The position numbers were made by a program, and so were the translations under genes. Shown piece by piece: positions 2,660 through 51,220 of a stretch of DNA of 64,000 bases. Numbering within the stretch: the stretch's first letter is position 1; the number at the start of each line of letters is the position of its first letter. The notes beneath the pieces are model-generated. The model saw nothing but the letters and a program-made list of their open reading frames with translations, ran no database searches and was not told the origin of the DNA. The DNA is from Trichodelitschia bisporula (Eukaryota > Ascomycota > Dothideomycetes > Phaeotrichales > Phaeotrichaceae), in NCBI GenBank assembly GCA_010356995.1, contig ML996689.1, positions 895,228 to 959,227 of the forward strand, read 5' to 3'.

Positions 2660-4491
2660 ATGTCTCCCTTTCATAATGACAGCAACGAGCCCTCCGGCCG
2701 CAGCTCGCCCGGTAATCACCAGCCACTGCCTCTCCTTCCTCTCTCTAGAATACCCACCCTCCGTCGCTCTAACGGCACTTCGCGAATCAGTCGCAATTCC
2801 TCCACCAGCACCTCGCCGCACCCCACCGGCATCGCCCTGTCCTCCAATCGGTCCCGCAGTCGCGATACCTCATCCGCCTCATCCGTGAGTCCTACAACAA
2901 ATTGGCATCCCCGTGGACATGCGTCCCAGTCGGCGCTGTGGGATGAGCGTGGGTTTCTTCGAGCCGGCGTTTTGCGGAGGCAGAGGCAACATCGGACAAA
3001 CAGCGATGGCCGTTCTCTTTGGACTTGTAGAGTGGTTGGCCTCGGATCGCTGAGTCCGGCGGTGCGACGTGCTCTGGAGAACGCCATATACATTCTTATT
3101 GCTGAAGAAGAGAGAGATGGTGGTGAAGTCGACTCCGGCAGGCCTACCGTTATTTACAGCAGCGGAAGCGACAACGACGAAGTCAACGGTCTCGGCGATG
3201 GGAGTTATGAGGATGTTGGCTACGAGGGGGTTAGTACCGTTTATTGGTCCCGGATTTGGCGTTTGGCCTGGTTTGGTATCTGGGGGTTTGTTCAACTGAC
3301 CGAGGACAGACCTCGTTGCCTATGGCGAACGGTGACGGGACTCCTGACTGGCACCCGGACCCTCGGTTGGTGGCTCGGCTGGTGGATGACGGTAGCGGCG
3401 GCGACAGCCTTTGGACCATCCATTTCAACGAGAGGAATCATGATGATAACGTCGCTGATACTACGAACGGTTTTGCTGCGGGTTCGTCTGGGCCCGAGGG
3501 GGGGAATTTGACTACTTGGGCCACGCCCACGTGGCTTTCGCCCGCCAACGAGACAACTTTATCTCGGCCCTCGACACCTCTGACCGTGAGCGATGAGTCA
3601 ATCTTTGAAACTATTTTTCAGGACCTTGGAGATCTTTACGATGACCTGGATCTCCTCCATGCGGCCATGTCTGTTCAGGGGTGGCGGGGCTCGCGGTCTG
3701 TTGCCCGTGAAGTCGAAGCTCGTGATCAGCTGCAGGACCAACTCCTGGAGTCACTCCAGAGCCAGGCAGATCTTTGGCCCGTTGCACAACGCATCCTCAG
3801 TGTGCTCTACGTGCAACGAGCGTTCACCGATGACAGGGTTGATGGCATCCGGAGCACCAGTGGCCTGAACGGCACTTATAATAATGGCACTCATTCCAAC
3901 GGCACTCATTCGGATGATGAGAATTGGGACAGCACTGATATGGATGGTACTCCTGTGAATACTCATGTCAACGGCACTCATGACAACGATACTCACGTCA
4001 GCGGCACTAGTGTCAACGGTACTCAGGTCAACGGCACTCGTGCCCACGCCACTCATGTCAACGGCGTCCATGCCAACGACACTCGTATCAACGGCATCCG
4101 CGTCAACGGCATCCGTGTCAACGGTACTCGTGTCAACGGTACCCGTGTCAATGGCACTCGTGTCAATAACACTTACACTTACACCGACGCTTCTACCAAC
4201 ACTCCCCCCAACGGCACTCATCTAAATGGTACAGGCTCCACCAACCCTTATACTCCTGAGCGCCTTTTCCAACCCCACCCACGTAGGCCATCCCTTAGCA
4301 ATGTGACGTTTTACGGGACCTACCCCAGGCTGAACAGAAGCCCGAGCTATCGGCGACACGACGCTTCGCCCCAGGTTTGGGGACCGACAGGCGGCCCGCA
4401 ACCGGCGGCGAGTTACTTCAGCCGGCGCGCCATGGGGGCTGCGTTTGCGGATATGGAGTCCAGTGATGATGATTCGGATGTGGAAGTCTGA
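2660..4491 (+). CDS. Orphan protein with an N-G-T repeat region
   Basis: Two exons, 2660-3229 and 3310-4491, are joined across an 80-nt intron (GTTAGT donor, CAACTGAC branch, GACAG acceptor) in phase 0, giving 583 residues. The first 100 residues are Ser/Arg/Pro-rich and disordered. Residues around 145-165 (SPAVRRALENAIYILIAEE) form a hydrophobic helix. A helical stretch follows at about 290-365 (ESIFETIFQDLGDLYDDLDLL, then RDQLQDQLLESLQSQADL). Residues about 378-500 are a repeat of N-G-T units (V/H-N-G-T-R/H), and the tail is acidic (ESSDDDSDVEV). No signal peptide is evident, so the N-G-T sequons may not be glycosylated. I recognise no family. A GTGAGC...TTTTCAG stretch of 36 nt at 3587 resembles an intron but is too short. 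Confidence 0.7.
3870..4230 (+). repeat. Degenerate 15-bp coding minisatellite (N-G-T units)
   Basis: Inside the preceding gene, units related to gtcaacggcactcgt recur about twenty times, most regularly from 4075 to 4165. Each unit encodes Val-Asn-Gly-Thr-Arg/His. Units differ mainly at the first and last codons; flanking units are more diverged, as expected of expansion from the middle. The unit length is a multiple of three, so unit gain or loss keeps the frame. Confidence 0.85.
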
Positions 4492-5060: not shown

Positions 5061-5507
5061 TGGGAGATGGGGAGTTTGGGTGGGGTAAACCTAAGATTAG
5101 TTTAAGGGGTCTGGGGGGTGGGGCGGGGATGGGGACTTGCTCCTTCCGCCAGGATGACAAGTGCTGTACGACAAGTTGGAGAAGTGCCGCGGATGTATGT
5201 TCATGTACCTTGAAGTGGAAAATGTGCTTGTGGGGAATAATCACTGCGCATCAGTTGGTTGAAGTACATTCATTCTCCGCATGCGTTCTAAGCATCGAAA
5301 TCTAAATACCATCCCCAGACAATAAGGTCACGAATGAGGCTGCCGATGCTTCTCCGCCCCGGTCATTATATACCGCCTCCATCATTTCCAACGGCTTTCA
5401 GAACGCCCCGCCCCGCCCCGCCACTCCTTAGCCGTTCCATGGGTGCGAGAGAGAGGCCCGGCAGGGCACTTATTGGTCCCTATCAATTCTGTCACGTTGT
5501 TCTTCGC
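5061..5507. other. Spacer between tRNA-Glu and the first orphan block
   Basis: Upstream flank of the tRNA gene followed by GC-rich sequence with a CGCCCCGCCCCGCC run near 5403-5420 and a TATATA at 5368. I see no supported gene. Confidence 0.4.
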
Positions 5508-6080
5508 TCAGGATGTGGCGTGACTCGTTCTCCGTTGTGAGCTGGTCGTACGCCTTAGCAGGGAACTTCGAGTATTGGACGAACGCCGAGAGATAAGGTG
5601 GAGACCGAGCAAGGAGAAGAGGGTTGATGTTGTCGGTGGGAATTGTCGGGCTGGTAGAAAATCGAGTGAGTCAGTCAAGGAGCGCTTGGTCGGCTTTGAG
5701 GAAGACTTGGCCGGCTTTGGAGCGGGCTTGATCGCCTCTGGCGGAGGTGCAGTCGGCTTCGGGGCAGGCCTAGTAGGCTCCAGGACAGGTTTAAGCGCCC
5801 CTGGCGCACGACCGGTCGGCTTCGGGGCAGGCTCGGTCGGCTCCGGAGCGGGTATAATCGCCTCTAACTCAGAATTGGTCGACTCCGGAGCGGGTTTGAT
5901 CGCCTCTGGCGTAGGATCGGTCGGCTTCCCGGCAGGTTGGGTCGGCTCCAGAGCAGGCTTGATCGCCTCAGGCGCAGGATTAGTGGGCTCCGTCGCGGGC
6001 TCGATCGCCGTCAGGCGGCGGACCGCGAGGTGGAATATCCGGAGAGTCGTCAGGCGCAGGCACCTTAGACCTCCTCGGCC
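5508..6080 (-). pseudogene. Orphan proline-rich repeat protein, probably broken
   Basis: On the minus strand the frame from 6008 to a TGA at 5508 encodes an imperfect Pro/Ala/Glu/Lys/Thr repeat with units such as PAPEAIKPAPEPTEP and APKPTGRAPGALKP, about 24-33 residues per cycle, then a basic tail. The segment just upstream reads KVPAPDDSPDIPPRGPPPDG in a different frame, so a one-base frame change separates the two halves near 6012; no splice signals explain the switch. The D-D-S-P-D-I-P stretch recurs in other orphan segments of this window (22.93 and 7.97 kb). I do not recognise the family. The opposite strand is also open here, as a Gly-rich mirror, but its composition is that of a shadow frame. 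Confidence 0.45.
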
Positions 6081-6138
6081 CTGTATATAATCGTATGCGG
6101 CAGCACCGCGGCCGCAAGACGGTTGAGTATGTCGGGCT

Positions 6139-6496
6139 TCACGCCGAAAGCTGGAACAATTTCGCGTTGAAAACGTGAAGAAGATTGCGATGGAGACACT
6201 CCATCGTGGCCTCCTGTGGGCCTGTTATATACCCAGCGGCAGGCGATAGCTGAGTTGCCGGCGACTCCATGGACGACGGAAGGGCACGACGCGCCTTGAG
6301 AAGCCGTCGGATCATATATATCTCGACCGCATGATCGATATACGCCAGAACGGGCATCGACCGGGCCAGGCAGTCTCCATGCGTTCCATACCAACCACGT
6401 GTAGTAGCCTTCACTCTTGTCCGGTGACCTCAATCGCACTAACTGAAATCGCAAGCTGGCGTAGTTGAGCCGCGAGGTTGCGCGCCGACTAATCAT
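6139..6496 (-). other. Orphan coding-like segment with a Y-I-T-G motif
   Basis: Two minus-strand frames are open: one of 143 codons starting with ATG at 6496, and one of 91 codons ending at a TGA at 6139. The second reads more like protein, with VLAYIDHAVEIYMIRRLL, then AAGYITGPQEATMECL and a tail NAKLFQLSA. The Y-I-T-G-P tract is encoded at a TATATA and matches the start of the second exon in the 22.5-24.4 kb tandem genes (YYITG followed by T/P-S-P). Its limits and splicing are unknown. It may be the next exon of the gene represented at 6759-7042. Confidence 0.35.
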
Positions 6497-6758
6497 GGTG
6501 GAGACGGTTGGAAAGCTGTTGGAACAGGGAAATCTTTCATCGCCGGATTATGAAGGGTTGTATATACGCCGGAGCAGCACCGGAGGCGCAAGTCATGCCA
6601 ATTATCCTGAAGGCGATTGGGTCGAAATGTCTAGAGGTATAATTGTCATCGCGGTGCTGTTTCCAGGAAGGACATTCTGGACCGAAGGTGATCTGAAGCT
6701 TCCAGGGCTAGAGGCTGTCAGCACACCTCCTACGTCGTCATCCGGCAGGGTGACTTAC

Positions 6759-7042
6759 GGGGAAGGTAATATATATACCATTCTCTTCTGTGGCTTCGCA
6801 CGCCTAACACAAGCTCCCGTTTTGGCGACGCATGCGATATCGAAAGCCACCGACTTAACAAGCGACGTCATGCCGGTGATTGGATGACCGGCAAAATGAG
6901 CGGCGCGCTCGGTCTCTAGGTCGCGGCGGAAAAGGATTGCTTCGAGGTCCCTAAGTGCTTGCCCCAAATGAGGTTCCACCAGCTCATGCTCATCTGCAGT
7001 GGGATAAAACGTCTCGTCATTCTCCGGGCCCTCAATGTTGCG
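6759..7042 (-). CDS. Exon-like segment of an orphan gene
   Basis: From 7042 down to 6759 the minus strand is open and has charged, helical, protein-like composition (ENDETFYPTADEHELVEPH, then LRDLEAILFRRDLETERA and VKSVAFDIACVAKTGAC). It ends in MVYILPSP at a TATATATA tract, directly followed by a strong donor GTAAGT at 6758. A branch/acceptor pair (GTGCTGACAG) ends at 6715, giving a 44-nt intron, or 51 nt with the next AG. Without splicing the frame stops at the TAA of the donor. An in-frame TAG lies immediately upstream of 7042 and could be a decayed CAG. No family recognised. Confidence 0.4.
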
Positions 7043-7061
7043 CTAAATGACGTATAGATGG

Positions 7062-7741
7062 CTACCGGTGGCCCGGCGGGAGGGGCCGAGCCACCGGACA
7101 GTCAAACGGTGGTGGTGAGAATGCTAGCGAGAATTGTTTGTACCGGTTCAGGTATTCCAGAGGGCGCTGTATATACGCCGCCACCTTTGGCTTGTGGATG
7201 GCGGCAAACTTCTCGACCAAGCGAAGACAGCCACGGTAAAAAAGCCTGTTGCTCTTAAAATATTTTGCTGCTCAAGTCTCTCAAGATAGCGCGAAGTAGC
7301 CTGGAAAGGTGGGACCTGGCCTGGCTTGAGTGCAGCAGGAGAAGTACCCGTGGCCGTCCTCTCCGGCTGGAATCGTTGCTCTGAGAAACTCCATCCATTC
7401 TTGAACGTTGTAGAGTTTGAAATAAACTTCTTCCCCCAAATCGAGCAAGGAGTTGACTTTGGCTTGACTATCAATACCGGAGCCTAGTCGCCGGCAGGCA
7501 CCGGAGCCTGGTAACCCGCAGGTACTGGAATCCGGTCGTTGGCAGGCACTGCAGCCTGTTCGCCGGCAGGCACTGGAACCTGTTCGTTCGACAGGGTTGG
7601 TTTTTGATTGTACGAATCGATGATAGATGGCGTAGGTGATAGGTGGCAGGCTGTGTGGTTGTTGGAGGTTGAAGGTTGGACGTTGGACGTTGGATTTTGG
7701 ATTTTGGACTTTGAAGTGCGCCGATGCTCGCCGCTTGACAT
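7062..7741 (-). pseudogene. Orphan gene with a V-P-A-G octad repeat, interrupted
   Basis: An ATG at 7741 opens MSSGEHRRTSKSKIQNPTS, a Ser/Asn/Pro-rich head, followed by four 24-bp units encoding (V/A/I)-P-V-P-A-(G/N)-x-Q (about 7484-7580). The last unit ends GAC-TAG where the other units have GAA-CAG, CGG or CAG, so the stop looks like a C-to-T change of CAG. Beyond it the same frame stays open (APVLIVKPKSTPC onward) for about 95 codons. Near 7255 a TTTTTT run marks a switch to another frame that reads FYRGCLRLVEKFAAIHKPK and VAAYIQRPLEYLNRYKQF before a TAG at 7062. I read this as one host gene with two or so lesions, or a gene with an unrecognised intron. Function unknown. Confidence 0.45.
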
Positions 7742-7917
7742 ATGATTTAGAACTCAACTGCTGGAAGGTGCGAGACGAGACCCCGCAGCCCAAGGCCGGC
7801 GAGGGCACTATGTGCTAGCTTTATACTAGCTAGACGCTCTGTAATAGATGTAAGCATTGGGTCGTGAGTAATAGTGCGACTTACATACTTACAGTTGTAG
7901 AGAACTTCGAAGGTCAG

Positions 7918-8220
7918 CTAGAACTTCAGATTCTCAATCTCCGTCGCACGTTGCCCGTGGGGAGTGTCCGGGGAATCCTCAAGCCGGGGGAATTGTTTGG
8001 TGCCGGGGGGTGACATGCAGAACTTTCGCTGAAGCTCAAAAATAGCAACATGATGATGGTTCGAAATCGAAGGATCAGAACATTGTCGTTTGTGGGGTTG
8101 TGGCTTACGAACATCACGCTGGCGGGTATGCTTATGGGCTGGCAGCTGGCAGTCGTCGAAGACGGATGAGCTCTTACGCATACCGAGCACCACATTGGCG
8201 GCCACTGGACAGATGCACAC
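7918..8220 (-). CDS. Short orphan ORF with an E-D-S-P-D-T-P motif
   Basis: Minus-strand frame ending at 7918 with a polar, protein-like composition (IFELQRKFCMSPPGTKQF, then RLEDSPDTPHGQRATEIE). The E-D-S-P-D-T-P stretch resembles the D-D-S-P-D motif of the segments at 6.04 and 22.93 kb. A convincing start codon was not found. An overlapping second minus-strand frame (119 codons) is also open, so the reading is uncertain. Confidence 0.3.
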   Translation of the reverse strand: MCICPVAANVVLGMRKSSSVFDDCQLPAHKHTRQRDVRKPQPHKRQCSDPSISNHHHVAIFELQRKFCMSPPGTKQFPRLEDSPDTPHGQRATEIENLKF

Positions 8221-17834: not shown

Positions 17835-18916
17835 GGTTGACGATGAAGCCTTTTCGGGCTCTGGATGTGAGGCTGCCTTGGACTTGAGTTGGTAGGTAGT
17901 CTTAGGGCTGCCCTTTTCCCTTCAAGTGTATGTCCACTAACGGTTGCAGTCGTGCTCCTTGGCCTGGCGACACGGTCGTGTTATCGACCAGCGCTCCACC
18001 GTAGCCGACCGCTGCTAAGGCTGTTCAGGACGCTCATGCCTGTGATCAAGCTGCTGGCTGGAGAGAGTGCGTCTACCCGGCAGCTCCAGCTACGGCACAA
18101 TGTCCCCATTGTATACAGTATGTCGTAGATGTTCCCCGGCAGCCGTCTCACCCGCGTGGCGTGGTATTGTCCTCAGCAAGCGGCATGCTCTTACGCCAAT
18201 GGCACTATCGACGCCCTAAACCTGGCGCCTCTTCATGTAACCAGGGATATGATCTTCAGCCGCGCGATGGAGCGTCGACGCTGCTGATGCGGGCCTGTTG
18301 GAGGGCTGCAGGCGCAGAGTTTGAAGATTCGGTCGGGCCGGTCGCCGAAGAAGTGAGAGTGCGAGATATCTATTTACAGCCATAGTGGCTTGTATGATTG
18401 CTTAAAACATGACGCCCTTGAGGCTCTACGTGGTTACTATGACTGATCGTGCTCATATGGCGAGGAAGTAGGTTCGACCACCACTAATGCCTCACAGCTT
18501 CAGAACAGGCTCTCAATCCATCATTTCGACTCTTTGACGCCCTGACACTCTGGCAACATGAGGAACCCATCTTCCAACACCATGAATGGCCTTCCCTCCA
18601 GTGCCTGTCGAAGCCCACGGAATTCGCCCTTTGCGCCTTCACCATCCCAGAAGCTCTTGAGAGCCGCTTGCCTTCGCTCCCTCCACCTGAACCCCCCCAC
18701 CTACGCACCGTGCATCACTCGCACTTGCCAAAGCCATGGGGTTGAAGGATTTTCTTCCCAACCCGGCATGAACGTCCAACCCAGCCTCGCTCATCCACCC
18801 CCGCTCCTTCCCTCCTGTCCTCCATTTCCCCTCCTCCTACCCCTCTATGGCAATCGCAGCTTCCCTTGGAGCAAACGAGTGACGTGGCCATTATATGCCA
18901 TTATGTCAGCGGTCGG
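17835..18916. other. Spacer leading into the large orphan block
   Basis: MED31 3' flank and 1 kb with no supported gene. An open plus-strand frame near 18161-18385 (ending EEVRVRDIYLQP) has no recognisable start or family and is left unannotated. Confidence 0.4.
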
Positions 18917-18926
18917 GTATAAAATT
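18917..18926 (+). promoter_or_regulatory. TATA box of an orphan transcription unit
   Basis: GGGTATAAAATTCC lies about 100 bp upstream of the ATG at 19019, followed by a C/A-rich leader with several CATC and CACC steps, the usual layout of a fungal TATA promoter. Confidence 0.55.
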
Positions 18927-19018
18927 CCTCTCGTCTTGACCGGGACCAACGGACTTCTCTCATCCTCTTCATCACCACCACTCAACATCTATCAACGGCC
19001 ATCAACGTCTCGCGTTTT

Positions 19019-19345
19019 ATGTCCACTCTCTTGCACTCGTCTACATCGTTCAAATACCTGTTACCAACACCGAAACACGTCATTGCTTTTGAACTGGCTG
19101 AACAAGCGCAGTTCCTCGTCTTCTTCGTTGCACCACCACGCAGACCACATACTTGATTATCTGTTAGCTTTTCAGCGGACTTCGTTTTCAACATGTCTGG
19201 CGAGTCATATCGCCAGCCGATACCTGATGGTAGCAAGGCTCAATCTTCAGTTTACACAGCTGCGTTTACCTGTGTATTAAGCCTTGCTCAGACGGAACAC
19301 GTCATCGGTGCCCCAGCGACCCAAAAAGATGAGAATGACACATAA
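19019..19345 (+). CDS. Small orphan ORFs (45 and 50 codons) behind a TATA promoter
   Basis: ATG at 19019 opens a 45-residue frame (MSTLLHSSTSFKYLLP ... FVAPPRRPHT) ending at 19156. A second ATG at 19193 opens a 50-residue frame (MSGESYRQPIPDGSKAQSS ... ATQKDENDT) ending at 19345. Shortly after, a GTACGT donor at 19355 and a CTGAC/TTTTTTTGCAG acceptor ending at 19424 delimit a 70-nt intron that would lead into the exon holding the ATG at 19457. How the pieces join is unclear. They may be the 5' part of the gene below. No family recognised. Confidence 0.4.
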
Positions 19346-19456
19346 GCACAGTAGTACGTATATATGCCATCACATCTTCCCATTGATTGGCAACTTGACT
19401 GACACCTTGCTACTTTTTTTGCAGCTTCTCACCCGAGCATCGCGAGGACCTCGAGT

Positions 19457-20160
19457 ATGTCCGAAATTCAGCCACCCACGTCCCCAAATGTATGGCAACC
19501 GCGGGATATTTACTTGTTGCTGGTCGATGTTAAGGAGACCTCTTCAGAGCGGCACTCGCGGGAAGCCGTGGAGATGTTGCGCTCCTTCAAGCTGAGGAGG
19601 TTTTACACTGGCGTCTCCCGGTATGAGGGATTTATTGAGAACACTGGGGACAGCGTAAAAGCCACAGGTCTTCGCGGAGGCAACAGGGTTCTTGACAACA
19701 AGGACCTTCATATAAGGGTGATCACTGTACGCCAGTTGGCCCTCTCGGCCGTCTGCCTACAGTTTTCACACCAATATCTCGATTGGCTGGCGAGGCCAAC
19801 AAACGCCGCAGGAGAGAATACAGCATTAGGAACGCCGGGCACCATGTCCTGGCGGTCTTCCGGGCGGTTGGGGGCGACGGTCTGGAGGTAGCCTGGTCCA
19901 ACAACATACCCGACCAGCGAGGTGCGTCCCTCGCTTGATGCGCGACTGCGTGCCGGTTTGGCGGCAATTCCGGCACCCTGGACTAGAAACAGTTCTACTC
20001 CGCCGAGTTTGAGGATGTGGATATGGATCCAGATCTTTTTGCGCTGCTCGGGGATCTCTTCACGGACGCCTCAGACGACTGCTCGTGGTCAGCCTCTGTT
20101 GAGGTATGGTCACGTACGAGAGTCCACATCACGCCATTGGTGCATGGACCAGTGTGGGGA
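19457..20160 (+). pseudogene. Orphan paralog copy 1 (D-I-Y-L-L / R-A-V-G-G-D family)
   Basis: From the ATG at 19457 the frame reads MSEIQPPTSPNVWQPRDIYL, VDVKETSSERHSREAVEM and LRSFKLRRFYTGVSRYEG, and stays open to 19891. In a second frame the segment at 19818-19915 reads IRNAGHHVLAVFRAVGGD, and a third open piece at 19993-20160 reads FEDVDMDPDLFALLGDLF then TDASDDCSWSASVE. Matching pieces occur in copy 2 (20573-21066), so the locus encodes or encoded a protein family unknown to me. A candidate intron (GTGCGT donor at 19920, AACAG acceptor at 19991) does not join the frames cleanly. A further open stretch to about 20420 contains one TGA that could be a former CGA. Either undetected introns or decay explains the frame changes. 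Confidence 0.45.
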
Positions 20161-20572
20161 GGGATCCATGAGTAGATAGGTTCTTCGAGTGGAGTCATCC
20201 ACCTCCATGTTTTGTTCCTCCTCATGTCCCCGAGAGCCTCCGAGCTCAGCCTCGATGGCTTGGAGATGACGAGGAAGGCAGGCGACAGTGAAATGTCGGA
20301 CGAATCTCTCTGGCGGGCAGAATGGTATTGACGGAAGAAGAAGGCCTACATAGAGATTCCGTCCGACGGGCTCTTCAGCGACTCCGGCGATTGCACTAAG
20401 GAGGATCCACTTGTATTCTAGAGTTGCTTGCTTTGCTTCTCTCCTCTCTTCATCTCATCAAAGTCTTCACAATTCAGCAAGTTCTTTGTTTCTGAACACT
20501 TCGCGTGTCATCAAGTCTTGGGATTGTCATCCCGCCATAGCTGCGTCTGTCTCGCAGCATTAAGTACCTTAA

Positions 20573-21066
20573 ATGGGTGGAGCTTCGGCTCCTGTATCTG
20601 TTCCCTCTTCTGCTCTCGCTTCTGCTCCCGCTACTGAGATGGCCAGTTCGTCGAGACCGTGAGGAACGTCGAGGCTCATTTACATCCTCCAAAACATCCG
20701 CCGGCCCCCTTCAACTGGCCTTCCACGACAAGGAGTACTCGTGGAGTTGCTGCGCTCTTTTCAATCTTGGCAGACTTTTCACCGGCGTTTTCGCGTATAA
20801 GGAAGTCGTTGAGAACACGGCATTAGGGACGCCGGGTACCACGTCGTAGCGGCCTTCCGGGCGGTTGGGGCGACGCTGTGGAGGCTTCTCTCTCCATCAA
20901 CAGCCAGTCGACGGAGGACACCCTTCGCGAGTTAGGAGACGAAATGACTCCAACTGAGCGGGCAATCATGACCAGCGGCTTGAGCAGAAACACACTGCCG
21001 ACCAGCATTTCGTGGAATAACGAACATCAACAAGGAGAACTACTTCATCTTCACACAATTCAATGA
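20573..21066 (+). pseudogene. Orphan paralog copy 2, interrupted
   Basis: The ATG at 20573 opens MGGASAPVSVPSSALASAPA, then an in-frame T-G-A, then SRLIYILQNIRRPPS and VELLRSFQSWQTFHRR, which align with DIYLLLVDVKETSS and VEMLRSFKLRRFYTG of copy 1. The conserved block follows as IRDAGYHVVAAFRAVG; one G is missing relative to copy 1 at that point, after which the frame VEASLSINSQSTEDTLRE ... HQQGELLHLHTIQ runs to 21066. Two further in-frame stops precede the block. This is a decayed or multiply spliced relative of copy 1; unlike copy 1 it lacks a 177-bp stretch bounded by GAGAAYAC repeats. Confidence 0.45.
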
Positions 21067-21391
21067 TTTCAAAGCACACTCTTGCTTGTGACTGTGACAC
21101 GGGTACTGGCAATGACAGTTCCACGGTTTGTGTTGTGCTATGAAGACGATGACTCGGGATCACGCTGCTAAAGATTTCTATGTACAGTATATACGACTCC
21201 TGTCAGGGGCGCACAAGTCACTGGTTGCACAGCATTGGTTGTGGAATAACATTCATTGAAAGCTTGAAGAACTATGTAAAGGTTTCGCGTCTGAATGTGG
21301 AGTGTGGGGGAGCTGGGGGTGCTAGCGCACAGGCCAGCGCCAAGCCCTCAACCGGCAAGTCCAGTCGGGGCTGGAATTGCAGTATCCGGCA
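21067..21391. other. Spacer in the orphan block
   Basis: 325 bp with no supported gene; a TATATA at 21187. Confidence 0.35.
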
Positions 21392-21878
21392 TCAATCTTG
21401 CCGAGTCACGTGACCCATACAGGGCATGTGGCCATTTGACATGGGAGAGATGGTATCCTCCCATGACAACTCCGATGAATCGATCTGGCTTTCCAACCGG
21501 CCCCCTGGTCCACATGGCTGTACGCGCGGCGCGCACGCGCATGGGCGGCGAAGACGTCGAGCGAGAGGCCTAGAGCGCGGCCTATATAAATCCCGAGCGG
21601 ACATCCAGCGCAAGATCCCCCTGCAGATCGCCAGCAGGAAGACGAGGAGGATGAGGGCGTAGGCTGTGAACTTGCCCGCGGCCTTGTGAATGATCTGTTG
21701 GTCTGAGCGATCTGCTTCTCGACATATTATATAAGACCCTCACCAGGCAGTATACCAATCCGCCTCCAGCCGCCGGGGATCCACCGCTGGTGGGCTTGTT
21801 CCGGAGACCGATGAACGGAAGTGGGATGTTCTCCGAGCCAGGCGGACCGTGAGGAGGAGACGAGACGGCGTCATGCAT
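21392..21878 (-). CDS. Orphan single-pass membrane protein candidate
   Basis: ATG at 21878 (minus) opens MHDAVSSPPHGPPGSENIPL, a Pro/Ser-rich head that continues NKPTSGGSPAAGGGLVY. A donor-like GTGAGG follows at about 21749. Downstream another frame reads READRSDQQIIHKAAGKF, then a clear membrane helix TAYALILLVFLLAICRGIL, then a strongly basic stretch RWMSARDLYRPRSRPLARR. The frame ends at 21392. The positive charges after the helix suggest the C-terminus is cytosolic. A TATATAA tract sits at the join of the two frames; a small intron is possible, but its acceptor was not identified. No family recognised. Confidence 0.4.
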
Positions 21879-21919
21879 GGTGGCATCAGTATCCGGCTAT
21901 AGGGGTTAGTGAGGCACGG

Positions 21920-22117
21920 TTAATTCAGACTGTGCAAAGTCCAGGAGTTGGTGGAATCGTCGAAAGGGTAAGAACGAGGCTCCCAGCCGTCGGGTTTGAT
22001 GTACTGGGTAAAGCTGTCGAAGGCTGTGCCGGCAAAAGGTGAATCGTCAGCCTTGTCCTTGGCTGCCGGAGACTCATGCTCCGTCGCGCTAGCCCGGGAA
22101 GCCGGAGGGCCGTCCAT
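21920..22117 (-). CDS. Orphan 65-residue protein with a D-D-S-P motif
   Basis: ATG at 22117 opens MDGPPASRASATEHESPAAK, then DKADDSPFAGTAFDSFTQYI, KPDGWEPRSYPFDDSTNS and a Trp/Leu tail, with TAA at 21920. Upstream on the minus strand lies a C/A-rich leader and a TATA-like ATCATATACTCC about 100 bp before the ATG. The same frame remains open upstream to 22591, where it is the second exon of tandem copy II, so it could instead be the C-terminus of that longer protein. No homolog known to me. Confidence 0.45.
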   Translation of the reverse strand: MDGPPASRASATEHESPAAKDKADDSPFAGTAFDSFTQYIKPDGWEPRSYPFDDSTNSWTLHSLN

Positions 22118-23427
22118 GGCAAGCTTCGTTTCCGTTTCTGGAAGGTACAGAAATGTGTGATGGTAAGCTGGATGACGCTGATTGGCGGGGTGGTGGAGGA
22201 TGTGGGGGTCCAGAGAGGGAGTATATGATTGCACTTCAATGGCAATGAATCGTGACCGCACTGGTATAAGAGGTTCCACTCGAAACATATTGTTGACGAG
22301 GTTTTCGGAAGCGGTTGCGTGGAGCAGCACGCACCGGCGGCCTCGGGCATGATATATACCTGCGGGCCCAGCCTTTCGGGAAGATTGCGTGGATGGTTTT
22401 TTCCTGAAGGCTTTTGAGCCAGACGACGAAGGGTCTCGCCCTTCGTCGTCTGGCTCGTCGGCTGAATCCTTAGTTGTGTAGACACCGGGGCGGTATGGGG
22501 CGCGGCGCTTGATCTTTGTGCCGTAACGGCCCTTGATGCGATTAGCGGCGGTAGGCACAGCCGGAGAAGTGCCGGTTATATAGTACTGCAACAGTTAGCA
22601 TCGCTGAGCCGAGAACGAAGGGCGTATCCGCGCCCTAAAGAACTTACTGTCGGTATATAGAGGTGGCAGCCACGAGGACCAGAGTCATCACTGCGTTCCG
22701 CACTCATCGCCGCTCTCCCCACCCTCGCCTCCGCAGCCTTCAACCACTCCGATATAGGCGGCAACGCTTGGAAAATCTCTCGTCCTCGAGGCTCTCATCG
22801 TTGATCTCGAACCTGCGTTAAAGTTCGTCGTTCTCCAGTTGGAGAACGCGCGTTCTCTAATCGTCATTATATAGATTTGCATCTGGATGTGGAGGAGGTG
22901 AAGCGGAACCGCTCGCTGGGAGGTCTGGGGAATCGTCATGGTCGGTGCCTTAAACGGGGGAGACGGCAGCTGACCTTCCATCTGCTTGTTCCATTTGGAA
23001 CCATCAGACTTGGAGCCCGAAGCACCTTGACCCTTGCTGCCAGAGCCGCTCGACTTCTCGCCACCGCCAGAGCCGTCCCTCTGCCTGGAGGCGAGCGACC
23101 TGCCGCTTCACGCGAGCGCTGCACTTTTGAGCCTTGGTAAGTTCCTTCGGGGCGTTGTCAACCGCGACAGCAGTGGCGTTGGCCTCCTTGTCCGAGTGGC
23201 TCGCAGCTTGTTTGATGATGGTGGCGTTGGTGGTCTCGGGCTTGTTTGACGTCTGAGGTGCCGACTTGACAACCGTTACAGGGGAGTCGTTGTCGTCCTT
23301 TCCAGGCTTTCGTATGATATCCGGTGGCAGCTAGGGGCCGCAGTATAGCGCCGGTATAGAGGGGTTATGAGAAGGCTGCACGCAGGTACGCGCAGAGGTA
23401 CTGGGGTATGATTGGCGGCTCAGCCAT
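22118..23427 (-). CDS. Tandem orphan gene, copy II
   Basis: ATG at 23427 opens MAEPPIIPQYL, matching copy I exactly at protein level. Further down the minus strand are DDNDSPVTVVKSAPQTSNK, the stretch KCSARVKRQVARLQAEG, a DDSPDLPASGSASPPPHPD tract and LPPISEWLKAAEARVGRA, ending HLYIPT at a GTAAGT donor (22647). The 62-nt intron ends CTAACTGTTGCAG (22586) and the next exon starts YYITGTSPAVPTAANRIK, then a Lys/Arg-rich stretch and GVYTTKDSADEPDDEG. The last splice joins HLYIPT to YYITG in frame. Frame changes occur between the upstream pieces (a TAA after AAFS; a switch near 23085; TAG and TAA codons near 22830-22860), so copy II is either partly decayed or has more introns than I can place. 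Confidence 0.5.
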
Positions 23428-24449
23428 GTTTGTGACGTTTTCGTCATTCATTGGAAGTGTTAACGATTGTAGTTAAAGTGGTGAGTGACGTTGTTGGTGG
23501 AAGAAGAAGCTGAAGCCGAACCCTCGCCTGAGCCAGTAGCCTTGGTCTCCGGAGGGGAAGGGCCGGTTATATAGTACTGCAACAGTTAGCCTCGCTGAGG
23601 TGAGTGAGAGCGTGTCTGCGTCCCGAGGCACTTACCTGCAGGTATGTAGGCAACACCTATCATGTCGAAAGTGAATGGTTTTGTGGCTATCTCACCGGTA
23701 GTTGTTAGGAGGTTGGCCGGCGTGTTTTCTTGATCGTAGGGGGGGTCTGAGGCCGTTGACGAGTTTGCTTACCGTAGTGTGTGACTTGAAGTTGCTCTGC
23801 TCTTGAGGGAATGTGGTGATCGTGTGTTGTGCGGTTGATGAAGAGGGGAAGATGGATATGCGGGCTTTTATAGCAGCACAGTTGCCGCCAAGGGGGCAGC
23901 ATTTTGTGGGCGGAATTCGGGTTCTCCGTGAACTCAAATGCGGAAGGTGGAGGTGACAGCAAAGCGTCCGTATATAGGATTCATGTGAGGCTCCACGCAA
24001 GCGCGCGCAGAGGCTGACATTTTTTAAAAGCGATAGTGTCCGCAACTCTATCGGCTTGGTTCTGCTCTGCAAGCGACTTGTGGACATTAAGCTACGCGTC
24101 AATCTCGCTGGATGGCTCTACATCTGTCGGTGGCTTGCGGACGGGCAAAGCCGCTTTCGTCTTTGTGTAGGTGAATGGCGACTTGCGCGGAGCAGGCCTA
24201 GGAGCCCGGTTGAACGAGGATTTAGGATGAGCGTAGCTAATCTTGGTACCATTCGTCTTTATGGTGGTAGAAGGCTTAGGAGCCTGGTTGGTAGCGGGTT
24301 TGACGTACGTAGTGCCAGTCTTGGTGGCATTCGCCTCGAGGCTACCAGCAAGCTGGGGAGCCGGGCTGGCAGCGGATTTGGCATGAGAATCGTCAGCCTC
24401 GGTGACACTCGTCTTGGAGGTATTGGGGGATGATCGGTGGCTCAGCCAT
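23428..24449 (-). CDS. Tandem orphan gene, copy I
   Basis: ATG at 24449 opens MAEPPIIPQYL. A one-base frame change later the strand reads NTSKTSVTEADDSHAKSAA, then SLEANATKTGTTYVKPATN and PFTYTKTKAALPVRKPP before a TAA near 24091, a Lys/Thr/Pro-rich region like its counterpart in copy II. A TATAAAAG box at 23865-23872 then precedes a second start, ATG at 23662 (MIGVAYIPA), which runs to a GTAAGT donor at 23635. The 59-nt intron ends CTAACTGTTGCAG (23577) and the next exon starts with TACTATATAACCGGC, nearly identical to copy II. Copy I therefore may hold two short transcription units, or one gene interrupted by decay. Spacing to copy II is 0.99-1.02 kb at both matched ends. Confidence 0.5.
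23865..23872 (-). promoter_or_regulatory. TATA box inside tandem copy I
   Basis: TATAAAAG on the minus strand, flanked by GC-rich sequence, followed by a C/A-rich leader with CATC and CACC steps, a possible GTAAGC donor at about 23775 and the ATG at 23662. Confidence 0.55.
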
Positions 24450-24639
24450 GTTACTGGCGTTGTCTATATTCATGGAATGTTCCACGATTGTATAAGCCAC
24501 ACCGGGCCGCCCACCGATATGCCATGCTGAATTCAGATGCGAACTAGCTTTTGCTCATCTCGAGCTTGTGGGTTTGTGGGCGGTGATCAAGGGGCCTCAT
24601 TGATGGAAGCAGACTGCCTTTGGTATATAGCCGGCAAGG

Positions 24640-24927
24640 TCAGTGAAGTGCGCGCCGGCGCGCGCAGACCTTGCAAGTATCCTCAATGGCGCATTCATGG
24701 CACTCTTTCTCCTTCGTCTTCGCTAAGGAAATGATGGGGCAGGAGAAGGTTGCGGGCTCATGCGGCGGGTGGCGACGGTAACACGGCCGGGAGTCGTAGC
24801 CACCATCGTGGCCACCGGCTAGGGCCTCGGGGTTGACAGGATCACGCTCTTCCTCGTCTCCGTAAATGGCTTCTTCCAGGGGTAGCTTGCGCTTCCAATT
24901 GGGGCTCTCGCTGCCTATAGTTGCCAT
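24640..24927 (-). CDS. Orphan 95-residue Cys-containing protein
   Basis: ATG at 24927 opens MATIGSESPNWKRKLPLEEA, continues IYGDEEERDPVNPEALAGG and ends CHECAIEDTCKVCARRRALH. The C-terminal C-x2-C-x5-C-x2-C arrangement could bind zinc, but no known zinc-finger family fits. The same frame extends upstream with protein-like sequence (GQFEDVSHHIFDLVCTF) up to an in-frame TGA that may be a former CGA, so the ORF may be the remnant of a longer protein. The opposite strand upstream is also open; the minus reading is preferred on composition. Confidence 0.45.
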   Translation of the reverse strand: MATIGSESPNWKRKLPLEEAIYGDEEERDPVNPEALAGGHDGGYDSRPCYRRHPPHEPATFSCPIISLAKTKEKECHECAIEDTCKVCARRRALH

Positions 24928-25445
24928 GAAGGTACAGACAAGATCGAATATATGATGGCTGACATCCTCGAATTGTCCCCTTCAGGATCGGCGGTTTCTT
25001 ATAAGTTCGACTCGTGGCTGGCGCGGGAGCCTGTGCTTTGTATATCCGGACCGGCATCCGTCCTGAGTGTATACGTCGAAGCGGTCTCTTTGAAGTTGAT
25101 CAACTCCGCGAGGCGGTGGGACGCTCGCCGGGCCGCGTCACACCGGTATAAGGGCCATTTCAGGCCGAACAAGAGAAAAGAGTGAGAAAAAGGGAGATGG
25201 GGGGATTCGGAGAGCTAGGAAGTTCGTGAGTGCTGGAGTTTTTCGAGTGTTGAAAAATGGAAATAAGGCGGCGTGCTTTGACATGCACTTGATGTCGGTA
25301 TGGCAGGGCCTCGTTGTTTTGGGTGGGTTCGGCCATGCTCTTGTGAGCCAGTGGTACCGAAGAAGCTGCGTATACTATATCACGATAATGATCATTCGTA
25401 GAACGATCAACCGATATATCATGCATCGACTCAGCAATATCATCG

Positions 25446-26100
25446 TCAATGGTAAACCCGGGAGGGGCTTAGAGGAGGCTGCTGATTCGCTGCGAGTGTC
25501 TTCGGTGGTGATTCCAGCCAGTCAGCTGGAGAGGCGCTTCTTGATTGCGTATGAGCACGATGACCATGGAGAACCCCCATGCCCGTAACAGCTTCAACGT
25601 TGACAGAGTCCAAGGACTCGTTGGAGCCCATGTAAGCGCCAATCATCATGGGCTTGAACCAAGACTGGGTGACGCGGGTCGTGGAAGCGGTGGTCGAGCG
25701 CGCGGTGCCGGTGGCCTTGCGCGCGATGTGAGCGGCTTCCGCTCTCGCCTCCCTCTGCTTCCTCAGCTCAGCCCAGAGCAGCGGCCATGCTCACGCTTCA
25801 CCCTCTTCCGCAGAGCCCTCCCGCGGCGACGCAAGGCACTTTCTGGCGACTTCCTCGATGGTGCCTGATGTTCCGGGCTAGGAGGTGCAGGGCGAGCACA
25901 TGCGTCTTTTTCGAGGCAATGTCCGGCTCCGCCTCCATGAGCTTCTGCGTCTTCTCGTCCGCCTCATCCGGGGCCTTTTTCATCTCAGCGGTCGCCTTCG
26001 CAAGACTCTTGATGGAAGCAGCCAGATGGTTTACACGCGCTCGCGGCGGCCTGACCCCTCCCCGGGATGTCCCAGGGGATGGTGAGGGTCAGTGACCCTA
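25446..26100 (-). pseudogene. Orphan coiled-coil gene, frame-broken
   Basis: On the minus strand one frame reads RVNHLAASIKSLAKATAE then MKKAPDEADEKTQKLMEA and EPDIASKKTH (about 26040-25880), a charged helix. A different frame further down reads HIARKATGTARSTTAST, then FKPMMIGAYMGSNESLDS and VNVEAVTGMG (about 25710-25580), ending at 25446. No splice sites joining them were found. A short upstream stretch, TIPWDIPGRGQAAAS (about 26090-26045), matches TIPSDILSPGDQAAA in the gene at 26225-26734, so the two loci share ancestry. Function unknown. Confidence 0.35.
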
Positions 26101-26224
26101 TACGGCGAACTTTCGGGCCGACAGTGTCGGCAACAAGCACGCTCGTCGTGCCTTTCTCGTGTGGTGTGTGTGTTCTGCGAGCTCGTTTCTTCGGTGGGTG
26201 ATCAGTGTAGCGAATTTTGTTTGT

Positions 26225-26734
26225 TTATGCTTTCGAAGGCAGGGCCGTTGTGAAGATGGTAAGAATGCTTGCACGCCCCACTTGAAGGGGCGCCCCTTCA
26301 CGTTCCTCACCCAGCACGCCCACTGAGGAGCAGATGAAGATCGTTATGCGGATCAGGCCGCTGTCGAGCGCGGCGGCCTGATCCCCGGGGGACAGGATGT
26401 CCGAGGGGATGGTGAAGGGAGGTGCTCTGGTAACGGAGCAGGCCGAACGGACAGCAAAGGAGGAGCGCAAGGCGAAAGCGGCGCGGAAGTCCGAGGAGGC
26501 TCGGAAGGCCGAAGATGCGATGCGACTTCGGCGGAGCTGACTTGAAAGGGGGCTGGTGATGGGTAAGGGCGGAGACAGGACCCCGTCAATCCCATTGTTG
26601 CACAATTCAGCCTGAATCGTATATGAGAACAGCCGACGGTTTTTGTTTGTGATGCTTTCGCCTAACTTGATGGTATGCTGCGCAGGCTTGTACGGATTGA
26701 GGCCTGGGGCGGCCGATGTTGGTGAGCCAGACAT
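26225..26734 (-). CDS. Orphan 169-residue protein
   Basis: ATG at 26734 opens MSGSPTSAAPGLNPYKPAQH, then TIKLGESITNKNRRLFSYT and IQAELCNNGIDGVL, a convincing coding composition. The second half is a Ser/Arg/Ala/Phe-rich run overlapping an equally open plus-strand frame that reads as a charged helix (TEQAERTAKEERKAKAAR), so the real 3' end is uncertain. TIPSDILSPGDQAAALDS matches a fragment 0.3 kb downstream. A TATAAAT lies only 10 bp before the ATG, too close for a normal TATA promoter, so the start could lie further in. No family recognised. Confidence 0.4.
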   Translation of the reverse strand: MSGSPTSAAPGLNPYKPAQHTIKLGESITNKNRRLFSYTIQAELCNNGIDGVLSPPLPITSPLSSQLRRSRIASSAFRASSDFRAAFALRSSFAVRSACSVTRAPPFTIPSDILSPGDQAAALDSGLIRITIFICSSVGVLGEEREGAPLQVGRASILTIFTTALPSKA

Positions 26735-26927
26735 GTTGGATTTATAGGTATGAGACTCGTGACGCGCCAAAAAGTAGAGGCGGTCAGGAACCTCCGTTCA
26801 CACCATTGGTGCGCGGCTCAGATGGCGTTGGCGCATATATAATTGGCCGGAGGCGCTCACTGCGGAATGAGGTGTTAGTAGATGTTATGAGGCATTGAAA
26901 AGTGACATACTGATATAAAGGCATTGG

Positions 26928-27286
26928 TCAAACCGAGCAGAGTAGGTAGTGGATGCTGCCGACTTTTCGGGGGGTAAGCGTGACTAGCTGCTTCTGCGAG
27001 CTTTTCACCATAGCCTTCTCTTGCTCTTCACGAATCTTCAATTCGAGAGACTCTTTTTCTTGCGACAACTTGCTTGAACGTTGCGCGTTAGAACTGGACG
27101 ATATTTCATCGATGAGGGGTTTCATGAGGAGGAAGTTCTTCGTGGAGGCTGGCTTTGTTTTGTGGAAGAGGAAGTGTGGGCAGGGAGTATATTTATCGTC
27201 GGTCCTCGAGCATTCACAAGCGTTCGGCCCTGTTCATCACCGTGTTTCGTTGTGTTGTTCTTGACATGATAGTTGTTCCGGGCCAT
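26928..27286 (-). CDS. Overlapping pair of small orphan ORFs, the second a coiled coil
   Basis: ATG at 27286 opens MARNNYHVKNNTTKHGDEQ and runs 54 codons to a TGA at 27122. The TGA overlaps the ATG (ATGA) of a second frame, 27125-26928, which reads MKPLIDEISSSSNAQRSSK, LSQEKESLELKIREEQEKAM and VKSSQKQLVTL, a clear amphipathic coiled coil of 65 residues. The overlap suggests either one protein split by a one-base frame change, or a missed intron at the junction. No family recognised. Confidence 0.45.
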
Positions 27287-27593
27287 TGTCGTGAATGGTC
27301 GGTCCAGGAGTCTCATTCGCTAGTTGGTCCTCTTTTCGGGAGAAAGATTTTCCGTGACGGGTAAAAGTCCCATCACGTGCATGTCTCCCTTCCATTCTTC
27401 AACATCAACCCCCCACCATCACTTCTTCCACACATTTACCAACACCTGCCAAACATCTACCGACTCCGTTTATATGTCGAATTGAAGGCTTCAACGCAAA
27501 CCCCCACAACAATCGGTCCACACATTGTCAGTGGCTTGCATAGCCTTATCGATCACTCAATCAATCATTCAATATATCTTTACTCCCCAAAAA

Positions 27594-27601
27594 TATATAA
27601 A
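27594..27601 (+). promoter_or_regulatory. TATA box of the orphan gene at 27664
   Basis: TATATAAA about 65 bp upstream of the ATG, with a C/A-rich leader between (CATCCACACACCATTG). Confidence 0.6.
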
Positions 27602-27663
27602 GGCGAAGAAGGCTTCTCCCGTGCTCATCCACACACCATTGTTTTTGAATCTTCATTTTCAAA

Positions 27664-28326
27664 ATGAAAGCCTTCAACAACAACACAGCTCCTCTTCCCG
27701 ACTTCTCCTTCCAGTATCGCATGGATAGGATGCCGTTCGACCACCTCTATGAAGGAGCTTATGCTTCCTTCGACTTTCCTCAGCTCCTCATCAAGTTGCT
27801 CTCAGGCCTTTCCCCGGTCCCGAACTCTTCCGGAAAGCCAACAAAGTCCAGCACCATGGTGTCTAGCACCTCCATTTCGACCGACAGAACGTCTACCAGG
27901 GCATCCTATATATGTAAGTTCTTCAGTAGTCTCTGGTTTGTGGGCTTTGCTAACAGTGACAGATATCCAGTGCGGCCTTTATGCACCGCCTTTAGTGTGA
28001 CCTGTATACCGCCTTTGGCGTGGCCTGTCGCACCTGCCCCGCCGCGCGGACGCCTGGTCCTGCCGGTTCAAATCCCCCCCATTCCTGCCGCCGCCCCGGA
28101 GTATATATATGTTCCGCCAGTTCCGGTCATGGTGCGTACTACCAATCCGGATATTGCCACCAACAAAGACCGCCAAAAAGTGTCAAAACATGAACCCCCT
28201 CAAAAAAAGGTCAGAACCCAAAGAAAAAGAAAAGAGAAGAAGAGCTCGGGCAAAGGCGCGATTAGAACCTCGGCATTCAAAGCGCACAAGGCGGCATCAG
28301 CCTTTATTGCGCGGTGCGTTCTATAG
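27664..28326 (+). CDS. Orphan Pro-rich protein with a basic tail
   Basis: ATG at 27664 opens MKAFNNNTAPLPDFSFQYRM, then DRMPFDHLYEGAYASFDFP and a helix QLLIKLLSGLSPVP. A strong donor GTAAGT at 27914 follows ASYI (TATATAT). Possible acceptors: CAG at 27970 (57-nt intron, keeps the long frame, 201 residues) or CAG at 27962 (49 nt, best branch distance, but stops after 95 residues). Unspliced, the frame is open for 220 residues. The long version continues PIPAAAPEYIYVPPVPVMV and ends in a Lys/Arg-rich stretch (KKVRTQRKRKEKKSSGKG) that could be a nuclear signal. A GTGCGT donor near 28316 hints at further exons. No homolog known to me; promoter and codon use suggest a real gene. Confidence 0.55.
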   Translation: MKAFNNNTAPLPDFSFQYRMDRMPFDHLYEGAYASFDFPQLLIKLLSGLSPVPNSSGKPTKSSTMVSSTSISTDRTSTRASYICKFFSSLWFVGFANSDRYPVRPLCTAFSVTCIPPLAWPVAPAPPRGRLVLPVQIPPIPAAAPEYIYVPPVPVMVRTTNPDIATNKDRQKVSKHEPPQKKVRTQRKRKEKKSSGKGAIRTSAFKAHKAASAFIARCVL

Positions 28327-28964
28327 CGCCTCTCATGCGACCGAGATCTCCGGTAACTATATACAACCGACGAGGAACCTCCGGATGTATATTTGGACTG
28401 ATGGCTCGCCTTGGGCGATGGCGCCAGCCTGAGCAGCGCCAGGAGAAGAAACTCACGGTGGCTGAGGAGAAGAAGAAGCGGGATGAAGAAAAGAAGGGGC
28501 GTGTGGAGGAGGAAACCCATGTTTCATTGGGTGTTATGATAGTAACGCCCTTAGGGCATTGACATCAGCTACTACAGGCATCAAATACAACCTCGCTCTC
28601 ACCTTTCTCCTAGATCACCACGTTCCCATGACGACGCCATGATAACACCCATGCCTAGCCATCTACGAAGTATGTATCCCGCAAGACCAGCAAAGTTCAT
28701 TCCAAGAACTCCATTCTTGACAGGAACTCGTTGACTTGCAACTTGTTGGAAGGATGTGTGTGTAAGTAGTTCCATATTGAAGCAATGAAGCTTTGAAATA
28801 TCACATTGGCGTTACTGCTTCGGGTACTGAAGCCCCATCCCGCACCACAAGGATTCTCATCAGCTTAGCATTAAAGCATACACCAGAGCAGCTGTCGCCC
28901 AAACTCCATCCGCCCAAGAAGCAGGCTTCACAGCCCTCCAAGCCAGCCCACTCTCCCATCAAGC
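28327..28964. other. Spacer between the orphan block and the reductase gene
   Basis: Holds a charged open frame at 28440-28560 (LTVAEEKKKRDEEKKGRVEE), possibly a further exon of the gene before it, TATATA at 28360, and the 3' flank of the reductase gene on the minus strand. Nothing else supported. Confidence 0.4.
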
Positions 28965-43167: not shown

Positions 43168-43226
43168 GTCGCCTGGCGAATGTGCGGTCTTATGGATCTT
43201 GAGGCAGAAAGGCCTTTCATCAAATT

Positions 43227-51116: not shown

Positions 51117-51220
51117 ACAGATAGAAAGACTGTGAAAAAGGCAAATATATCGAGTACTACTTGAAAGCATCATTATCATGGTGATTGACGGGCTCTTGGG
51201 GAAACATACTTGAGGAGACC

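Follow-up and report, generated by a model that had tools for sequence, protein, structure and literature searches.

A patchwork of short gene pieces in a 9.2-kb island of the Trichodelitschia bisporula genome

The window analyzed here is a 64,000-nt stretch of contig ML996689.1 (assembly GCA_010356995.1, positions 895,228 to 959,227) from the Dothideomycete Trichodelitschia bisporula. An original prediction, made from the sequence alone, had read positions 22118 to 24449 as a ~1-kb head-to-tail tandem duplication of an unknown two-exon gene on the minus strand. Our data show that these positions lie within an island in which short pieces (44-274 bp, median ~110) match separate loci at 70-95% identity, and we are close to certain that the stretch is a patchwork of pieces from many genes and not a gene duplication. 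Neighbouring pieces often abut within 0-10 bp, two interrupt sequence that is uninterrupted in its relatives, the source genes lie in one direction within each block, and a second locus is built in the same way.

Source loci of the island pieces

The genome searched was the fungus's own assembly (25.65 Mb, 30 contigs), with an E cut-off of 0.01 for searches with 21900-24700, 18400-21900, and 53.0-55.8 kb, and of 1e-6 for a 15.35-kb query from 24650, for 40-53 kb, for the 8.3-18.5 kb side, and for the second island; with the long queries the self match was absent from the output, and their row counts are therefore lower bounds. The query 21900-24700 gave 15 rows, i.e., the self match, one palindrome self-hit, and 13 others, and these 13 represent 9 places on 6 contigs that match different parts of the query (those on C18 and at C3:1625k overlap). 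Across the island, ~3.6 of 9.2 kb match other loci directly, and coverage reaches about half once blocks repeated within the window and a solo long terminal repeat (LTR) are counted. No dispersed pieces were found in 19627-21200.

Coding parts of source genes are represented, as are their leaders and 3' ends, one promoter-like piece, and short portions of introns (Table 1). The sources appear intact where examined, and several are conserved genes. Among them, the PRP5/DDX46-type helicase matched PDB entry 7oqb (PRP5, E 6e-50) and DDX46 (E 2e-61), the EAF gene carries Pfam family PF09816, and the transporter belongs to the VIT1 family (PF01988), its piece consisting of the last codons and 3' flank. 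In a Pfam scan of 10 source proteins, 4 matched a family with E no higher than 0.1 (DEAD, EAF, VIT1, and a sub-threshold Myb-like match) and the other 6 matched none; the C17 source of 25775-25888, to which Pfam gave no match, is presumably RTF1. Six proteins predicted from the island itself likewise had no Pfam match.

The second island (C1:1217.7-1223.6k) gave 11 non-self rows in the own-genome search, with identities of 73 to 95%. It holds 153 bp at 95% identity to an ADA3 gene (PF10198), as well as another piece of the same VIT1-type transporter gene.

These sources bear on the idea that we are looking at an ordinary family of fast-evolving paralogues, of which blastn displays only scattered conserved spots. 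Several sources, at C3:314k, C19/C16, C18, and C20, lack a Pfam match, and relatives of some of them are present in the genome, which is compatible with such a family. However, pieces of PRP5, EAF, VIT1, and ADA3 cannot be paralogues of Pfam-less sources, the source neighbours of each conserved-gene piece are missing from the matched stretch of the window, and joins abut; we therefore regard a paralogue family as very improbable.

Anchors, insertions, and joins

Two anchors do recur head to tail on the minus strand, as claimed: the peptide MAEPPIIPQYL at 24449 and 23427 (1,022 bp apart), and a GTAAGT...CTAACTGTTGCAG/TACTATATAACCGGC junction repeated at a spacing of 991 bp. A self-comparison of 18-28 kb (blastn, word size 7, E up to 0.5) aligned the first pair over 78 columns (81% identity, E 1e-11, offset 1022) and the second over 99 columns (78%, E 2e-15, offset 991), both far beyond chance expectation. 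By eye, the 33-nt MAEPP core differs between the copies at 4 sites, every one a third codon position. A genome-wide search that allowed at most 3 mismatches located the MAEPP codon pattern at 2 places and a 29-nt intron/exon pattern at 2 places, all in the window, and the reversed-pattern controls for both gave 0 matches. A third relative of the MAEPP block was found on C20 by a peptide search of the genome.

The same self-comparison of 18-28 kb did not yield a continuous ~1-kb off-diagonal. What is homologous are two short blocks, the MAEPP (M) block and the intron (Y) block, of about 135 and 98 bp, and the homology stops beyond them. A 58-bp pair within the region has an offset of 616 because the ~406-bp insert described below sits in the MAEPP block of copy 1; a tandem duplication would show homology over the whole unit at one offset, whereas we found 1022, 991, and 616. 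The region also contains an internal repeat with a 78-bp period, and three further pairs lie outside it in 18-28 kb. The end of the M block and the intron block are separated by 308 bp in copy 1 but by 681 bp in copy 2, and the similar ~1-kb spacing of the anchors is therefore largely a coincidence. Instead of being diverged second copies, the intervals between the anchors match different loci, namely C3:314k and C3:1811k in copy 1, and C1:1219k, C1:1121k, and C14:643k in copy 2. The N-A-T and D-D-S-P likeness that had been read as retained between copies is a matter of composition, the pieces coming from different genes for disordered-looking proteins, and the proposed selection on the intron region is unsupported, given that homology merely ends outside two ~100-bp blocks.

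A tandem duplication of one fast-evolving two-exon gene, with copies that diverged between conserved anchors, would fit the two head-to-tail anchors at similar spacing and a predicted 241-aa spliced frame at copy B, and this much of the original prediction stands. It lacks a continuous repeat unit, and the two intervals have separate source loci, a 406-bp insert lies inside the anchor of copy 1, and the frame of exon 2 differs between the copies. Both putative introns have splice-site-like sequences, but in copy A the frame opened by the closest upstream ATG meets exon 2 in a phase other than that of copy B, so the copies would encode different proteins. A tandem origin thus seems hardly credible to us, and in place of an unknown two-exon gene family we see a patchwork of pieces from different genes.

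Spliceosomal-type introns in this DNA are short and have CTAAC branch sites. We rejected an introner-like mobile intron as the cause of the intron conservation, since only two genomic copies of this intron exist. As a separate observation, an intron-centred dispersed family of ~44 nt resembles fungal introner-like elements in occurring at several loci, and is a side feature only here: it starts at GTAAGTCA, ends ~10 bp past the AG, and has members at 6690-6761 of the window, at 4041-4093 and 5326-5395 of locus L026, at 4361-4411 and 5172-5227 of locus L030, and probably at two more places, on C1 and C2. On the plus strand, 19567-19888 and 20740-20884 form a block pair (offsets 1173 and 997; 73% and 85%) that likewise consists of short blocks rather than a full duplication.

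Two insertions can be read against uninterrupted relatives, the direction of copying being inferred throughout from which copy is intact or uninterrupted. On C20, the matches to 24660-24572 and to the MAEPP block are contiguous, whereas in the window they are separated by the 77-bp transporter piece. The sequence continues through ...IPQYLCA[YW]L... in copy 2 and on C20, while in copy 1 ...IPQYL is followed by ~406 bp with a match to the C3:314k open reading frame (ORF), and the block resumes at 24013. Since copy 2 and C20 are unbroken, copy 1 is the recipient. Each insert therefore has a source elsewhere and a relative that lacks it (copy 2 and C20 for the 406-bp insert, C20 for the 77-bp piece), as expected of templated insertions. 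Relative to C3:314k, the 406-bp insert misses 49 donor bases internally; it has CCTC at each end and shares ATACC with the donor at the left end. The junction of the 77-bp insert shows AAC, and divergence at the two inserts is 10-27%. Neither of these two insertions carries a poly(A) tract or a long flanking repeat.

Matches abut at 23079-23166 and 22966-23078, and again at 24572-24660 and 24495-24571. More generally, 29 blocks in 21508-28298 (dispersed pieces plus the window's M and Y blocks) are separated by 28 gaps, 11 of which are at most 10 bp; random placement gives 2.4 such gaps, and none of 20,000 simulations reached 11.

Table 1. Features of the island and its pieces (window coordinates)
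Feature	Position	Strand	Remarks
Patchwork island	19113..28298		own-genome searches; no match in flanks at E 1e-6
Solo LTR	21201-21468		268 bp, TGTCA...TGACA, ACTCC on both flanks
ORF with frames of intron block, C19, and C18 genes	21920-22594
Copy B exon 2 (putative)	21920..22585	-	chimeric reading frame
C18 gene piece in copy B exon 2	21937-22210		donor's own frame
C19 gene piece in copy B exon 2	22379-22556		donor's own frame
Y block copy B	22563..22660	-	78% to 23554-23649
Putative intron B	22586..22647	-	GTAAGT...GCTAACTGTTGCAG
Putative exon 1, copy B	22648..22707	-	MSAERSDDSGPRGCHLYIPT
ORF with C1:1121k and C14 frames	22688-23107
C14:643k gene piece	22910..22967	-	78%; adjoins next piece, in frame with 22966..23078
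C1:1121k piece	22966..23078	-	82%; internal to 857-codon ORF with sub-threshold Myb-like match
C1:1219k locus piece	23079..23166	-	83%; source is the second patchwork island
M block copy 2	23341..23474	-	MNDENVTNMAEPPIIPQYLCAYLRAA unbroken; 23388-23474 76% to C20:81k gene
Y block copy A	23554..23649	-	putative intron 23577-23635
C3:1811k-shared piece	23697..23947	-	70% overall, first 85 bp 89%
M block copy 1, continuation past insert	23957..24013	-
~406-bp insert in M block copy 1	24017..24423	-	C3:314k 1338-codon ORF, 73%
M block copy 1	24417..24492	-	MAEPPIIPQYL at 24449
VIT1/CCC1-type transporter gene piece (C4)	24495..24571	-	77 bp, 90%
C20:81k gene upstream flank	24572..24660	-	81%
ORF with PRP5 and Cys-rich gene frames	24640-24981		Cys-rich frame from the 24670-24819 piece
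C20:585k Cys-rich-protein gene piece	24670..24819	-	76%
PRP5/DDX46-type helicase gene piece (C7)	24823..24932	-	110 bp, internal coding, 78%
C2:900k gene piece, 5' part	24937..25082	-	75%
C18:638k piece, leader to start codon region	25146..25264	-	82%
RTF1-like gene piece (C17)	25775..25888	-	85%; exon end + 19 nt intron
C20:585k gene, second piece	25938..26016	-	80%
EAF gene leader + start (C11)	26639..26773	-	81%
C14:643k gene leader + start	27632..27812	+	75%; one 225-codon frame with 28240-28298
ORF with C14 and C19/C16 frames	27649-28326
C16/C19 gene family piece	28240..28298	+	90% to C16

Source-gene direction, reading frames, and TATA excess

The strands of the source genes were first judged by hand and afterwards scored from the codon usage of the sequence up to 500 bp from each match; a sanity check of the scoring was correct for 28 of 28 genes, which were the same as the training set and so not independent. 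In 21508-27070, the source genes are sense on the minus strand of the window in 28 of 30 rows, the two exceptions being one palindrome hit and one tied score (7 vs 7). With a score margin of at least 10, and leaving out the palindrome row, all 17 donor loci of this stretch are minus. The sense strand is plus for 5 of 5 rows (4 pieces) in 27632-28832, and for the 5 rows at 19.1-19.6 kb no strand was decided by score. All 13 rows of the second island are minus (9 donors, 4 with a margin of at least 10). Several strand-scored donors are themselves Pfam-less or island loci; among conserved or recognised donors only, the direction holds for 4/4 in the island (PRP5, EAF, RTF1-like, VIT1) and for 2/2 in the second island (ADA3, VIT1). 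Apart from the palindrome, the tie, and the 5 undecided rows, each block thus has the sense orientation expected of a retrocopy or template-switch chimera.

Such a direction is predicted by RNA-templated writing, in which a retroelement reverse transcriptase jumps between transcripts or transcripts serve as repair templates, and not by plain break repair. The direct joins without long homology are consistent with RNA templates, as are the solo LTRs, which attest to past retroelement activity; the LTR of the island has 22 near-full-length relatives at 86-97% elsewhere in the genome, and additional partial ones. In addition, directly fused transcript copies, one of them tripartite, are ascribed to template jumps of a long interspersed nuclear element (LINE) in Magnaporthe grisea (a passage of PMC2104539), and human class 2 templated insertions to patches that are possibly reverse-transcribed RNA (a passage of PMC5110952). 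Against this route, the RTF1-like piece includes 19 nt of intron and the piece 23697..23947 holds a TATAAAA promoter-like sequence, a leader, and an intron start, part of it upstream of the TATA box; these two pieces are therefore not from spliced mRNA, and unspliced RNA is the template at best. The two readable insertions lack a poly(A) tract or long flanking repeat, and the nested insertion together with the 73 to 95% identities in the second island argues for many events and not one composite cDNA. Template switching among RNAs thus explains the direction and not the intron and promoter-like pieces, and we consider it an unlikely, if serious, candidate.

At copy B, MSAERSDDSGPRGCHLYIPT spliced to YYITG... 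gives a predicted open chimeric frame of 241 aa, and four ORFs of the window retain the own frames of two donors each. Counted by codon position, the differences in 14 alignments were 117, 128, and 178, which is about the pattern of a neutral copy and a constrained source. Judging from the frames, a coding function is possible for a few of the chimeric ones, and some, such as that of copy B, could be chimeric genes of recent origin; a large share of the remaining island looks like decay. Within a coding-like piece, 22416-22456 forms an inverted repeat whose 18-bp arms match perfectly around a 5-nt loop; in the C19 relative the arms are similar and the loop is reversed.

The island is also rich in TATA, with 60 occurrences vs 11.4 expected from dinucleotides (~five-fold). 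Observed and expected counts were 13/8.2, 12/8.9, and 19/15.0 in three other parts of the window, and no other tetramer of the island exceeded 2.4-fold over the rest of the window. The second island (52/15.1) and the loci L026 (28/11.4) and L030 (32/15.2) share the excess, and eight other loci are at 1.1-1.8-fold over expectation. No wider motif past TATATA appeared in the TATA flanks, for which the island sub-stretches were picked after the TATA bins had been seen. Several TATA arose within pieces through clustered substitutions where the source has none. TATA sites are not clearly nearer to piece ends than chance: the median distance to a piece border was 31.5 vs 41.0 for random island positions (P 0.16), and 57 vs 67.6 for the 24 sites outside pieces (P 0.30). 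Comparing all 44 sites with random positions outside pieces gave 31.5 vs 66.8 (P 0.0016); as pieces contain 20 of these 44 sites, we do not take this as support. The stretches 50001-52000 and 6001-8200 are TATA-rich as well (11 and 10 clusters in 2-kb bins) and are possibly small islands.

Two mutational causes were considered and set aside. Mutation of the repeat-induced point mutation (RIP) type is rejected as the source of the divergence or of the TATA by the donor-to-window changes (C>T 76, G>A 88, T>C 61, A>G 74; the C3:1811k, C4:1540k, and LTR alignments left out) and by undepleted TACA, TGTA, and CATA, which are 1.08, 1.08, and 1.30 times as frequent per base in the island as in the rest (TACA: 0.99 of dinucleotide expectation in the island vs 1.29 in the rest). 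TA-insertion footprints are unsupported as a general cause of the TATA, 13 of 23 unshared TATA sites in 70 alignments being without length change.

The query 18400-21900 found the LTR family, together with a small number of pieces located at 19.1-19.6 kb and at 21.5 kb. The 15.35-kb query from 24650 gave 14 rows (best 14 of 15), all in 24670-28298, and the remaining 11.7 kb (28.3-40 kb) had no match at E 1e-6 among them. There was also none at E 1e-6 in 8.3-18.5 kb (best 22 of 23 scored), and the same best 22 of 23 placed 20 rows in 4.9-8.3 kb, 11 of them from a tRNA and the rest from repeats or, in a few cases, dispersed pieces. At E 0.01, 53.0-55.8 kb returned nothing but itself. We did not use 40-53 kb as a control, since a single dispersed repeat at ~46.5 kb accounts for 38 of its 40 rows and a tRNA-like sequence for 2 (best 39 of 201). 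This repeat (46502-46690, ~180 bp) has at least 38 rows at 76-84%. A tRNA-like sequence with a putative intron (43217-43319; 94% to C1:1305k, 92% to C11:922k) was missed by ARAGORN, run with the bacterial code, and did not reach the Rfam gathering score. Minisatellites occur at 3934-4211 (15-nt period, within ORF 3235-4491) and 5690-6007 (copies at multiples of 21 nt), and a protein family scan found a CLU gene, a ferric reductase-like gene, and an MFS gene. Together with the short introns, the solo LTRs, and the genome size, these genes would suit a filamentous ascomycete.

Possible origins and known systems

We favour templated insertion of gene pieces with persistence of the sense-oriented ones, and hold the chances that this is correct to be even. 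Short pieces from many contigs would have been copied into the region over a long time with their sources kept, some of them falling inside earlier sequence, as the 406-bp piece does in M block copy 1. Many events over time are indicated because the sources are kept, an insertion lies within an older block, and identities span 70 to 95%. Copying would have taken place where DNA broke or forks stalled, the ends being joined with little homology or none; the recipient region would be, or have been, transcribed in one direction, and insertions that yielded sense-oriented, spliceable, open chimeric frames would have been those that selection let persist.

Break templating explains the size of the pieces, the joins, and the mixed source types, yet it does not explain the direction, and several points weigh against our preference. 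Random break patches should lie either way (an expectation of our own, not taken from the literature), yet there is one direction per block. The appeal to selection is weak: the codon-position counts appear neutral for the most part, and the frame is not kept across three joins between neighbouring coding pieces (C1:1219k/C1:1121k; MAEPP/C3:314k; C19-type/C1:1121k at 28298/28435). None of the junctions that could be read is both little diverged and matched by a known empty site, and microhomology amounts to only a few bases. Insertions at end-joining sites are described as rare in yeast, unlike animals, in a passage of PMC9779921. Finally, templated insertion does not predict the TATA excess.

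To our knowledge, no mechanism predicts that excess. One could imagine the islands as sites of orientation-controlled, repeated writing, in which gene pieces are added in sense direction, possibly via unspliced transcripts, at TATA-excess loci dedicated to building chimeric frames, with TATA as a possible recognition or break site of the driving enzyme; we find so elaborate a system improbable.

Transposon capture, by a Helitron, a Pack-MULE, or hAT transduplication, would make the island one or several decayed elements. Helitrons have a 5' TC, and a hairpin and CTRR at the 3' end. Capture explains stepwise accumulation, and the genome contains one partial Helitron_like_N match, barely above the family cut-off with its neighbours, which covers only 51 of 191 positions (E 1.8e-5; 0 of 14 controls matched). 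No terminal inverted repeat pair frames the island: 22 pairs in 17.5-30.5 kb include none that is convincing, the longest (32 nt, G-rich) lying outside it; Helitron ends were not searched for. In addition, the 6 island proteins give no hint of such an element in Pfam, the pieces inserted in copy 1 start and stop within genes, and Pleurotus ostreatus Helitrons are said, in a passage of PMC4289320, not to tend toward capture of host gene fragments. We think capture by a transposon doubtful to improbable.

The islands offer source loci, pieces, and uninterrupted relatives that are visible in one assembly, whereas the shuffling that forms new genes is usually inferred from old, smoothed-over cases. 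A patchwork island may reveal how new mixed genes get assembled. If such islands occur genome-wide, they would provide a direct route to how short gene pieces are copied and to whether their direction is determined by selection or by the copying itself. Among the matches listed in our literature search, no open-access title or abstract opening described fungal islands of this kind.

Parallels exist to parts of the pattern. Maize Helitrons carry many fragments from different chromosomes, acquired stepwise (a passage of PMC3288121), which resembles the island; in T. bisporula, the only enzyme trace found is the one partial Helitron_like_N match, and no search for Helitron ends was made. In another fungus, Pyrenophora tritici-repentis, a hAT element transduplicated a histone H3-like gene (a passage of PMC3538342), and a mobile element thus multiplied a gene or fragment; as that source presents them, those elements are near-identical and have terminal inverted repeats, a frame absent here. 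The chimeric retrogenes of Magnaporthe, like our pieces, join different sequences directly and without homology, and according to PMC2104539 have at most three parts, a LINE 3' part, and 14-bp direct repeats on the tripartite one; the island has many parts, some of them unspliced or untranscribed-looking. Break-templated insertions, in yeast dna2, rad27, and RPA mutants and in class 2 of the human templated sequence insertion polymorphisms (TSIP), resemble the island in that short distant pieces are copy-pasted, sometimes several per site, with little microhomology; copy-paste and complex insertions are reported in a passage of PMC11724301, and the distant origin of the human patches in one of PMC5110952. 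Those cases concern mutants, induced breaks, or single polymorphic insertions, whereas the T. bisporula island combines dozens of pieces, a coherent gene orientation, and an excess of TATA in one place.

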